A stretch of DNA of 63,389 nucleotides from Opitutales bacterium (lineage in GTDB: Bacteria; Verrucomicrobiota; Verrucomicrobiia; Opitutales; JABSRG01), in contig JANQKZ010000004.1 of the NCBI GenBank assembly GCA_028280845.1, forward strand, positions 1-63,389, in the 5' to 3' direction. Of the stretch, positions 51,553 through 55,210 are shown in pieces. The position numbers and the translations under genes were made by a program. The first letter of the stretch is position 1. Every line of letters starts with the position of its first letter. The notes below the pieces were generated by a model. That model saw only the letters and a list, made by a program, of their open reading frames with translations. It did no database searches and had not been told where the DNA came from.

Positions 51553-53385
51553 CTAGGTTGCTTCCGGTAAAGAGCGAGCCTGAATGCGTTCCTGGGTGTC
51601 GCTGAGGAAGTCTTCCACGGTTTTCGTACCCTCCAGGGATTTGCCAACCCTGGAGCGGACATTGACCAGGCGAGCCTCGGCTTCCTTCTCACCAAGGACG
51701 AGCATGAGGGGGACTTTTTCCATCTCGGCGCGACGGATTTTAGCTCCCAGTTTTTCGTCGTGCTGGTCCAGGGTCACACGGAGACCGGCCGCTTTGACCG
51801 TTTCGTAAACCTCTTCGGCGTAGTCGGCTACTTTTTCCGAGATAGGCAGAATGCGAATCTGTTCCGGGGCCAACCAAATGGGGAAGCTTCCCGCAAAGTG
51901 TTCGATGAGGACCCCACAGAACCGCTCTATAGAACCAAAAGGAGCCCGGTGCACCATGACGGGCCGGTGGGGTTTATTGTCTGCCCCGACGTAGGACAGG
52001 TCGAAGCGCTCGGGGAGTACATAGTCTATCTGGACGGTACCCAGCTGCCATTCGCGGCCGAGGACGTCTTTGATCACAAAATCGATTTTAGGGCCATAAA
52101 ACGCAGCTTCTCCAGGCTCTTCGGTGAAGGGAACATCGAGGGATTTAGCGGCCTTGCGGCAGGCATCTTCCGCGAGATCCCAATTCTCGGGATCCCCGGT
52201 AAACTTGGAAGAGTCCGGATCACGGAGCCCGACGCGAACGCGGTAGTCTTCCATACCGAGGGTCGCGAAGACGACTTTTACCAGGTGAAGGCAGCCCTGG
52301 ACTTCATCGGCGAGTTGTTCCTGGGTGCAAAAAAGGTGGGCATCATCCTGGGTGAAGCCGCGGACACGCGTCATGCCATTGAGTTCGCCGCTCTGTTCCC
52401 ACCGATAGACCGTGCCAAATTCGGCCAGGCGAAAGGGAAGATCCCGGTAGGATCGTGGTTCAGAATCAAAAATCTTGATGTGGAAGGGGCAATTCATGGG
52501 CTTGAGCATGTAGCCCTCGATTTCACCCTCGCTCATTTTGTTGGACAACTCAGTGCAGGAACAACCCTCATGGGCCAGTTCACTGAGGAATTCCCGGTCG
52601 ACGATCGGTGGATACTGGGAATCCTGATAATAGGGAAAGTGACCGCTGGTGCGAAAGAGATCCAGTTTTCCGATATGTGGCGTAAACACCTGGTGGTAGC
52701 CCTGTTTGCGCAGTTCTTCGGAGATGAAGGTCTGGAGCTCTTGGCGTATGATGGCCCCATTCGGTTTCCAGAGCACCAGGCCCTGGCCGACAGCCTCATC
52801 GATGTGGAACAGCTTTAGATCCTTGCCGACTTTGCGGTGATCCCGCTTTTTGGCTTCTTCCAAGGCGTTGAGGTAGGCCTGGAGTTCGTCCTTGGTGGGG
52901 AAGGCCGTGCCATAAATGCGCTGGAGCTGCTTGTTCTTTTCATCTCCACGATGATAGGCCCCGGCCACACTCAGCAGTTTATACGCCTTAATTTTCTTGG
53001 TATAATTGACATGGGTTCCGGCGCACAGATCGGTGAATTCCCCATTCCGATAAAAGGAGATGGCGTCTCCTTCCGGGATGTCGTCGAGGCGTCCCAGCTT
53101 GTAGCGCTCTTGTCCCATCTCTTTGATGATCTTCACGGCTTCCTCGCGGCTGGTTTCGAAGCGTTCAAACCGTTGGTTTTCCTTGATGACCTTTTTCATT
53201 TCAGCCTCAATAGCTTCCAGGTCCTCCCCGGTAAATTTGTGATCCAGGTCAAAGTCGTAGTAAAAACCGCTCTCGGTGGGAGGGCCGATGTCGAGCTGGG
53301 CGTCAGGAAAAAGACGCAAGACCGCGGTTGCCAGCACATGGGCAGAGGAGTGCCGGAGTTCTTCGAGGGGAGACATGGATTTCAT
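51553..53385 (-). CDS. thrS: Threonyl-tRNA synthetase lacking the TGS domain
   Basis: ThrRS charges tRNA-Thr and edits mischarged Ser-tRNA. The editing domain has its metal-binding set H12, H16 (HSSAH) and C121, H125 (CAGTH), exactly 61 residues before the E. coli numbering (H73, H77, C182, H186). The class II core shows MNCPFHIKIF, the motif 2 region FRLAEFGTVYRWEQSG and the anticodon-binding C-terminal domain. Thus only the N-terminal TGS domain (~61 residues) is absent. The upstream DNA holds an attenuator, so no TGS was missed. The gene is preceded by a Thr-rich leader peptide and terminator (see below). Confidence 0.96.
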   Translation of the reverse strand: MKSMSPLEELRHSSAHVLATAVLRLFPDAQLDIGPPTESGFYYDFDLDHKFTGEDLEAIEAEMKKVIKENQRFERFETSREEAVKIIKEMGQERYKLGRLDDIPEGDAISFYRNGEFTDLCAGTHVNYTKKIKAYKLLSVAGAYHRGDEKNKQLQRIYGTAFPTKDELQAYLNALEEAKKRDHRKVGKDLKLFHIDEAVGQGLVLWKPNGAIIRQELQTFISEELRKQGYHQVFTPHIGKLDLFRTSGHFPYYQDSQYPPIVDREFLSELAHEGCSCTELSNKMSEGEIEGYMLKPMNCPFHIKIFDSEPRSYRDLPFRLAEFGTVYRWEQSGELNGMTRVRGFTQDDAHLFCTQEQLADEVQGCLHLVKVVFATLGMEDYRVRVGLRDPDSSKFTGDPENWDLAEDACRKAAKSLDVPFTEEPGEAAFYGPKIDFVIKDVLGREWQLGTVQIDYVLPERFDLSYVGADNKPHRPVMVHRAPFGSIERFCGVLIEHFAGSFPIWLAPEQIRILPISEKVADYAEEVYETVKAAGLRVTLDQHDEKLGAKIRRAEMEKVPLMLVLGEKEAEARLVNVRSRVGKSLEGTKTVEDFLSDTQERIQARSLPEAT

Positions 53386-53442: not shown

Positions 53443-53471
53443 AAAAAAGCCCGGTCTGGATCACCGGGCTT
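53443..53471 (-). terminator. Attenuator terminator upstream of thrS
   Basis: On the minus strand AAGCCCGG / CCGGGCTT form an 8-bp stem (53464-53471 with 53447-53454) around a 9-base loop, running into six T (A at 53443-53448 on the plus strand). It starts 25 bp after the leader peptide stop and ends 58 bp before the thrS ATG, so it would stop transcription before thrS. Confidence 0.88.
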
Positions 53472-53495
53472 CAGGAAAAAGGTTAATAGCAAACC

Positions 53496-53555
53496 TTACC
53501 GCCCAGGTGGGAGGATCGTAGCAGTCGTCGTGGTGGTAGTGATTCGGTTTTGCAT
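53496..53555 (-). CDS. thrS leader peptide (Thr-rich, 19 residues)
   Basis: The minus-strand frame from ATG at 53553-53555 to TAA at 53496-53498 encodes MQNRITTTTTTATILPPGR. Codons 6-11 are ACT ACC ACC ACG ACG ACT, and a seventh Thr codon follows at 13; two Ile codons are also present. The peptide resembles the E. coli thrL type in concept, not in detail. No strong Shine-Dalgarno sequence precedes it; instead an AATTTTCAGG/CCTTGAAAATT inverted repeat directly abuts the ATG. Confidence 0.82.
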   Translation of the reverse strand: MQNRITTTTTTATILPPGR

Positions 53556-53672: not shown

Positions 53673-55067
53673 TTACAGGGGTTCCAGATCGAAGCCGTCT
53701 TTGCGGTCGAGGACTTTCCATCCTTTACCTTGGATTTCGTCGCGAAGTGCATCGGCTATCTGGAAGTCGCGATTACGTTTGGCCTCCCAGCGGGCTTGGG
53801 CAAGGGAATGAATCTCTTCAGGGATAGCAACTCCATCCGTGCTTTCCGGTTGAATCTTAATTCCCAGGGCGAAGAGGACAGTGGCAAGGCCATTCAGGTC
53901 TGCTTCCCGATCCGGATCGAATGCTTTAAGATTGGCGAAAAGGGAACCGAGCGTGGCGGGGGTATTCAGGTCGGCGAGAAGCAATTTCCATGCGGCCTCA
54001 AAACGCCCTTTGTCCGGTCCAAAGGGAGGCCGGGGATCTGTGGTGTCCAAGACCCTGCCGAGCTTATCCAGAGCACTTTGCGCAGCGTCGAGAGTGTGGA
54101 AGGTGAAGTTCAACTGTTTGCGATAATGGCCACTGATGAGAGCATAGCGAACGGCCATCGGGTCATAACCTTTGGCCATAAGATCCCTCAAGGTGAAGAA
54201 ATTGCCCAGGCTTTTGCTCATCTTTTTTCCTTCCACGAGGAGGAAGACGACGTGCATCCAATGGTGCGCAAAGGTATGTCCTGTGCAGGCCTCACTTTGC
54301 GCGATCTCGTTTTCATGGTGGGGAAAAGTGAGGTCCTCCCCTCCTGTGTGCAAATCAAAGGTCTCCCCGAGATACTTCATACTCATGGCTGAACACTCGA
54401 GGTGCCAACCCGGACGGCCTTTGCCCCATGGGCTGTCCCAACCCACCTCTCCATCTTCGGGCTTATAGGCTTTCCATAAGGCGAAATCGGCGACTTGTTC
54501 CCGGTCGTACTCATCGGCGAGGTTGGCCGCTCCCGCGCTGTTGATGTCCTGAGTACGGAGTTCCTCCGGGTTGAAGTGGGAGAGTTTCCCATAATCCTCG
54601 AAGGTGCTGACCTTATAATAAATAGAACCATCGCCACCCTGGTAGGCGTGCCCCTTGTCCATCAACTGTTGAATGATATCCATCTGCTCCTGGATGTGCG
54701 CGGTGGCACGCGGTTCTACGTCGGGAGGGAGCATGTTCAGGGATTCACAATCTTCGTGAAATGCCTGAGTCCACTTGGTAGTGAAAGCTTCCAGGGAGCT
54801 GCCGTCGGCTTGCGAATCCCTAATGGTTTTATCGTCCACGTCTGTAATATTCCGGACGAAGAAGGGATTCATCCCTGCGGCGATGGCGGTGCGGTACAAG
54901 ACGTCGTTCAGGACAAAGGTCCGAAAATTTCCGATGTGCGCTGGTCCGTACACCGTAGGTCCGCAGCAATAGAACCGAAGGCGTTGACCATCGCTGGGCA
55001 CGAGCGGCCTTTCCGTTCGGGACAAGGTATCGAACAAGATGAGGGGGGCGGATCCTACACTTTCCAT
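53673..55067 (-). CDS. cysS: Cysteinyl-tRNA synthetase
   Basis: This class I synthetase charges tRNA-Cys. The signature HIGN (44-47 in GPTVYGPAHIGNFRTF) and KMSKS (VEGKKMSKSLGNFFTLRDL) are present. The zinc-site Cys near the start (YCCGPT) and the later CSAMSMKYLGETFDLHTGGEDLTFPHHENEIAQSEA block are typical. Length is 464 residues from the ATG at 55067. In-frame upstream codons (to 55196) enter the palindrome and are not part of the protein. The gene ends 117 bp before the thrS leader on the same strand. Confidence 0.96.
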   Translation of the reverse strand: MESVGSAPLILFDTLSRTERPLVPSDGQRLRFYCCGPTVYGPAHIGNFRTFVLNDVLYRTAIAAGMNPFFVRNITDVDDKTIRDSQADGSSLEAFTTKWTQAFHEDCESLNMLPPDVEPRATAHIQEQMDIIQQLMDKGHAYQGGDGSIYYKVSTFEDYGKLSHFNPEELRTQDINSAGAANLADEYDREQVADFALWKAYKPEDGEVGWDSPWGKGRPGWHLECSAMSMKYLGETFDLHTGGEDLTFPHHENEIAQSEACTGHTFAHHWMHVVFLLVEGKKMSKSLGNFFTLRDLMAKGYDPMAVRYALISGHYRKQLNFTFHTLDAAQSALDKLGRVLDTTDPRPPFGPDKGRFEAAWKLLLADLNTPATLGSLFANLKAFDPDREADLNGLATVLFALGIKIQPESTDGVAIPEEIHSLAQARWEAKRNRDFQIADALRDEIQGKGWKVLDRKDGFDLEPL

Positions 55068-55170
55068 CGTTGACAAGAGACTAACCAAAAGTGGTTCAGC
55101 TTTCGCTGGCAAGGGGCGAGTTGAGCAAAACCTCACGCTTCGGTCGGAGGTGCGCGGTTGCCGGGAGGAA

Positions 55171-55210
55171 GGTGTCAATACACAGTGTATATACACTGTG
55201 TATTGACACC
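55171..55210. promoter_or_regulatory. Perfect 40-bp palindrome upstream of cysS
   Basis: The left half is GGTGTCAATACACAGTGTAT, and the right half is its exact reverse complement. The centre consists of two abutting 13-bp palindromes, ATACACAGTGTAT (55178-55190) and ATACACTGTGTAT (55191-55203). It lies in the 246-bp spacer between the porin gene end and cysS, 104 bp before the cysS start. There is no adjacent T-run, so it is not an obvious terminator; an operator for two dimers or a mobile remnant is more likely. Confidence 0.6.

Follow-up and report, generated by a model that had tools for sequence, protein, structure and literature searches.

In Firmicutes, thrS, the gene for threonyl-tRNA synthetase (ThrRS), is controlled by T-boxes, and E. 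coli offers the classical case of autoregulation, in which ThrRS binds the thrS mRNA. Leader-peptide attenuators are known for synthetase genes of other specificities. The E. coli pheST attenuator (pheM leader), which PMC1262725 cites for comparison, resembles the element reported here in acting on an aminoacyl-tRNA synthetase operon through cognate codons, and differs in being specific for Phe and gamma-proteobacterial. Ribosome-mediated attenuation through a short leader with cognate codons was likewise predicted for synthetase genes of Streptomyces (leuS and trpS attenuators, PMC1262725) and of Rhodobacterales (uORFC-8-2 motif located 5' of cysS, PMC8632094), in each case for other amino acids and in other phyla. 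Leaders of hisS are known in bacilli (PMC2965389).

For thrS itself, a leader peptide was proposed once, as the thrL candidate (MKRVRPFLETTPGFVPAR) 5' of thrS in Streptomyces lividans (PMC8079986). This candidate contains two Thr codons only, is leaderless and has one hairpin and no U-rich tract, whereas the elements in the order of the present genome combine 4-8 Thr codons with clear intrinsic terminators. The initial annotation was not aware of a description of a thrS attenuator in this lineage. For Verrucomicrobiota none was found in the literature searched; for thrS in general this is to be qualified by the S. lividans proposal with no clear terminator. A survey of attenuation in operons for amino acids and tRNA synthetases (Lopatovskaya et al. 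2010), represented here by its citation in PMC4833913, might hold further thrS cases. The principle is known and its use on thrS in Verrucomicrobiota appears undescribed.

A close match in layout is E. coli thrL, in which the leader stop codon lies 20 nt before a GC-rich terminator whose 5' arm pairs with the final codons of the leader. E. coli thrL controls thrABC biosynthesis and senses Ile too, whereas the present leader is enriched in Thr and located 5' of thrS; the comparison concerns design, and sequence relatedness is not claimed. The most fitting description of the element is an attenuator of thrL type located at thrS, a known kind of regulator on a little-described target. The reading that it is a ribosome-mediated transcription attenuator of thrS, sensing the charging of tRNA-Thr, is given a probability of about 0.87.

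The cysS-thrS interval and its leader frame

The window (the whole stretch of DNA that was analysed, 63,389 nt) belongs to a 4.79-Mb genome with a single copy of thrS. In named records, the closest relatives of its ThrRS were from Opitutales/Puniceicoccaceae (Verrucomicrobiota). The genes cysS and thrS are separated by a 287-nt gap on the minus strand (cysS end 53673; thrS start 53385), and the gene order cysS-thrS is present in other families too. Transcripts reading through from cysS are a possible source of transcription toward thrS; no sigma-70-like promoter was recognised within the gap. Shine-Dalgarno sequences were found neither 5' of the leader nor 5' of thrS, and were present at few long ORFs of the window. 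Just 5' of cysS lies a perfect 40-bp palindrome (55171-55210, core GTGTCAATACACAGTGTATATACACTGTGTATTGACAC) that looks like an operator; a search of the window and the fetched loci gave no second copy of the core. The features of the locus are listed in Table 1.

Table 1. Features of the cysS-thrS region (positions in the window)
Feature	Position	Strand	Basis
cysS, 5' of thrS, same strand	53673..55068	-	sequence features; start codon assumed
Leader ORF MQNRITTTTTTATILPPGR and stop, 19 codons	53496..53555	-	frame reading and translation
Six-codon Thr run ACT ACC ACC ACG ACG ACT	53523..53540	-	
Seventh Thr codon (ACG) of the leader	53519-53517	-	
Predicted 5' strand of the antiterminator (CACC-U-GGGCGG), formed by the final codons of the leader and hidden when a ribosome occupies the stop codon	53499..53509	-	nascent fold with and without ribosome mask
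Hairpin AAGGUU-UGCUAUU-AACCUU, beginning inside the stop codon; inner part of antiterminator	53479..53497	-	folding
Predicted antiterminator 3' strand, CC...GCCC GGUG; GCCCGGUG overlaps terminator 5' arm	53462..53475	-	nascent fold
Intrinsic terminator GAAGCCCGGTGATCCAGACCGGGCTTT and U-tract	53443..53472	-	folding; between leader and thrS
thrS, threonyl-tRNA synthetase, proposed regulated gene	51553..53385	-	named by similarity to ThrRS across relatives

Reading of the minus strand (53555-53496: ATG CAA AAC CGA ATC ACT ACC ACC ACG ACG ACT GCT ACG ATC CTC CCA CCT GGG CGG TAA) bore out the 19-codon Thr-rich frame claimed upstream of thrS, with cognate codons making up 7 of the 19 and six of them consecutive. 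Its stop codon is about 110 nt from the thrS ATG. Over both strands of the 4.79-Mb genome, runs of six ACN codons occur at only 4 separate sites, and none of 20,000 dinucleotide shuffles of the cysS-thrS gap contained such a run inside a short ORF.

Terminator, alternative pairing and proposed switch

As in attenuators of the trpL/thrL/hisL type, an intrinsic terminator lies between the leader and the gene. The terminator with U-tract that had been claimed after the leader (GAAGCCCGGTGATCCAGACCGGGCTTT followed by TTTATTG, 53472-53446) was found to have a stem of 10 pairs that takes in outer A-T/G-T pairs, with a folding energy of -17.2 kcal/mol, beginning 23 nt past the leader stop codon and finishing 60 nt before the thrS ATG. 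The claimed pairing of CACCTGGGC (53501-53509) with GCCCGGTG (53469-53462) was correct, with one bulged U, and the antiterminator segment CACCUGGGC is the proposed partner of GCCCGGUG.

The nascent fold was calculated for the RNA before the terminator 3' arm, with a ribosome mask placed at chosen leader codons. With the ribosome at the first, middle or last Thr codon, the antiterminator had -18.7, -18.7 and -15.5 kcal/mol, respectively, and with the ribosome at the stop codon -1.5 kcal/mol was left. The predicted structure with a stalled ribosome reads CACC-U-GGGCGG-U-AAGGUU-UGCUAUU-AACCUU-UUU-CC-UGAA-GCCC-GGUG, in which the terminator 5' arm pairs with sequence that lies under a stop-codon ribosome; the structures are mutually exclusive, as had been proposed. 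E. coli thrL, used as control in the same calculation, behaved alike, with a strong nascent antiterminator at the Thr codons (-23.3/-21.2/-13.6 kcal/mol) and 0.0 at the stop codon.

Compared with dinucleotide shuffles, the antiterminator had a p of about 0.07 in the window and 0.015 in E. coli thrL; across five elements, p was 0.07 (window), 0.03, 0.05, 0.09 and 0.12, the window's order holding too few sequences for covariation. The window antiterminator is thus only modestly better than the shuffles, a suggestive result at most. Thermodynamic exclusion of the terminator by stalling was rejected: the equilibrium ensemble favours the terminator in every state, so the switch in the window must be kinetic (a terminator probability of 0 for L017 in this calculation, due to an indexing artefact, was disregarded). 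This model was kept because the equilibrium ensemble of E. coli thrL also favours the terminator, even with a stalled ribosome.

From these elements we infer the following sequence of events. RNA polymerase would transcribe the leader, with a ribosome close behind translating MQNRITTTTTTATILPPGR. When Thr-tRNA is ample, the ribosome would arrive at the TAA and mask CACCUGGGCGG, and the terminator would form before thrS. When Thr-tRNA is scarce, the ribosome would stall on the Thr run, and CACC-U-GGGCGG and the AAGGUU/AACCUU hairpin would pair with CC...GCCCGGUG before the terminator 3' arm exists; with this antiterminator formed, the polymerase would read through into thrS. More ThrRS would be made when charged threonine-tRNA is short, giving thrS a predicted response to starvation. 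Comparative evidence, given below, supports the leader, terminator and alternative pairing as one putative functional unit.

Distribution across two orders of the class

The comparison covered 192 distinct upstream regions of thrS, mostly of the window's order, plus some other class members and outgroups. Leader and terminator occurred together in 5 of the 192: the window, three genomes of family f4 (G030, G046, G062) and one of family f7 (G110). These four relatives carry MIFIFQTTGTRTTATTFRAGFFGGD, MLKIIHKTTTRTATSGAEAFGCS, MSIITQTTTTRTATTMAGSCGCD and MPEIIITTTSSTRPPKPSACG, respectively, each with a terminator. When the search was made for all 20 amino acids, the result was 5 regions for Thr, 2 for Lys and none for the other 18, so that Thr alone stands out as enriched. 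The f1 and f4 peptides are alike around the Thr run (TTTTTTAT, TTTTRTAT, TTTRTAT). Nearly all close relatives, including the only other genome of the window's family, had no such device in the thrS upstream region. The expectation that it would be found at related thrS genes held in part: leader and terminator recur in three families, but the distribution is patchy and the device is not generally conserved.

The leader-bearing genomes are spread over separate families of the ThrRS tree, the one of f7 being nested among leaderless relatives. The tree follows the families and gave no support for gene transfer as the cause of the patchiness; the device may have arisen once in an ancestor or several times. 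Three loci (L024, L117, L120) have a terminator 5' of thrS but no Thr leader, a state suggestive of loss and decay of the attenuator. L120 has what looks like a deletion joining a TTGACT box to a terminator remnant. This box (TTGACT/TTGACA) recurs before thrS in f4, f7 and f10 (e.g. L016, L017, L131, L121, L132, L143), 37-41 nt 5' of the leader start where a leader exists, with poor -10 hexamers at 17 nt; the window has no obvious counterpart. One further candidate (L010, MTTTHKRSPQTGHCSAFGID, thrS of G032) was rejected as a Thr leader: it has the family-conserved TTGACT box at the end of its frame and no Thr leader in common with its relatives. No Thr leader was seen 5' of homoserine dehydrogenase in the five genomes examined for it, that of the window included.

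Sampling of the class revealed a Thr leader at thrS of a genome of a second order (G589), and a recurring element in thirty thrS loci of that order. Its leaders (e.g. MALGRNTTTTF and stop, many being NTTTT-[L/F/I] and stop) often end in up to four Thr codons plus one residue. The stop codon usually overlaps the 5' arm of a hairpin (hairpin 1, GCGTyC...GrACGC), which a terminator (ACGCCTCG...CGAGGCGTTTTT) directly adjoins. A covariance model of this element (R1) matched 122 of 293 second-order genomes, nearly always with one copy each. Among its best 30 loci, thrS was downstream in 28, i.e. in all 28 with a visible downstream gene (two end too early to tell), and 27 of these 28 had a leader with 2-6 Thr at the expected place. 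Pairing in hairpin 1 and the terminator was intact in 98.6% of cells, and double changes numbered 23 versus 8.4 in shuffles; both helices are supported by covariation, which concerns no antiterminator.

Outside the second order, R1 matched 2 of 388 genomes, neither match being before thrS and both resembling ordinary gene-end terminators. Over 87 loci of the window's order with thrS upstream regions, three sub-threshold matches were obtained (the window, L121 and L131), all leader-bearing, and the window gap alone gave 15.3 bits (E 5.6e-4); R1 rewards ACN codons and terminators, so that such a match indicates shared design and not necessarily common descent.

Fold calculations on the second-order element found no classical conserved antiterminator. 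Hairpin 1 can form alongside the terminator, whose predicted probability hardly changes with a ribosome mask. The outer arms are invariant, GCGT being common to segments 1 and 4 and ACGC to segments 2 and 3, and may matter for the switch. A wider reading, which we hold to be doubtful, is that the class carries an undescribed, widespread thrS attenuator, with a near-fixed form in one large order that would not need a classical antiterminator to switch, as hairpin 1 and the terminator can form together and have the GCGT/ACGC arms in common, and that the thrL-like form of the window either diverged from this form or converged to it.

In several second-order genomes, 1-7 kb of other DNA interrupts thrS at about residue 262-289 (G378:C12:92784-93602 and 87992-88957; likewise G634:C155, G619:C42, G636:C70 and G478:C17), and other genomes of that order have an in-frame thrS insert at the same place. 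The break is possibly an intein, an intron or a gene split.

Alternative explanations and significance

The hairpin could simply be the terminator of cysS, in which case thrS would have a promoter of its own within the following 60 nt and the Thr-rich frame would be accidental. Its place between two same-strand genes would suit this, as would the terminators at the equivalent place without a Thr leader in L024, L117 and L120. We regard it as very unlikely, given the rarity of the six-ACN run in the genome and in the shuffles, the recurrence of Thr leaders ahead of thrS terminators both in further families and in the second order, and the absence of a promoter-like site between the terminator and thrS; in f4 and f7 the TTGAC(T/A) box lies upstream of leader and terminator alike.

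Even less probable is a translated, threonine-sensing leader that works chiefly by a route other than switching this terminator, such as translational coupling or reinitiation at thrS, or Rho. Leader genes have been proposed to act by reinitiation (PMC4833913), and the compatible hairpins and mask-independent terminator of the second order indicate that another logic may exist there. The distance from leader stop to thrS start, occupied by a strong U-tract terminator, is unlike reinitiation distances, and the alternative pairing in the window fits the classical scheme. Least probable of all, and scarcely credible, is control by a T-box, another known RNA or ThrRS binding to its own mRNA, in spite of the precedents in Firmicutes and E. 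coli: searches with Rfam families, T-box included, gave no match in this region of the window or at nine related loci, among them thrS leaders, and ThrRS binding would leave the Thr-codon run and the terminator unexplained. Attenuation of thrS, the reading of the initial annotation, is supported by the presence of leader, terminator and exclusive pairing, by the comparative recurrence and by the thrL control.

The second-order form raises the mechanistic question of switching without a visible antiterminator and, if the wider reading is true, would add a new variant to the known attenuation logics. The origin and loss of attenuators can be studied on more than a hundred naturally occurring variants, and the element could serve at once as a conserved reporter of Thr-tRNA charging. 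Verrucomicrobiota would join the groups in which a tRNA-synthetase gene is under ribosome-mediated attenuation, and such an attenuator would imply tight coupling of transcription and translation there.
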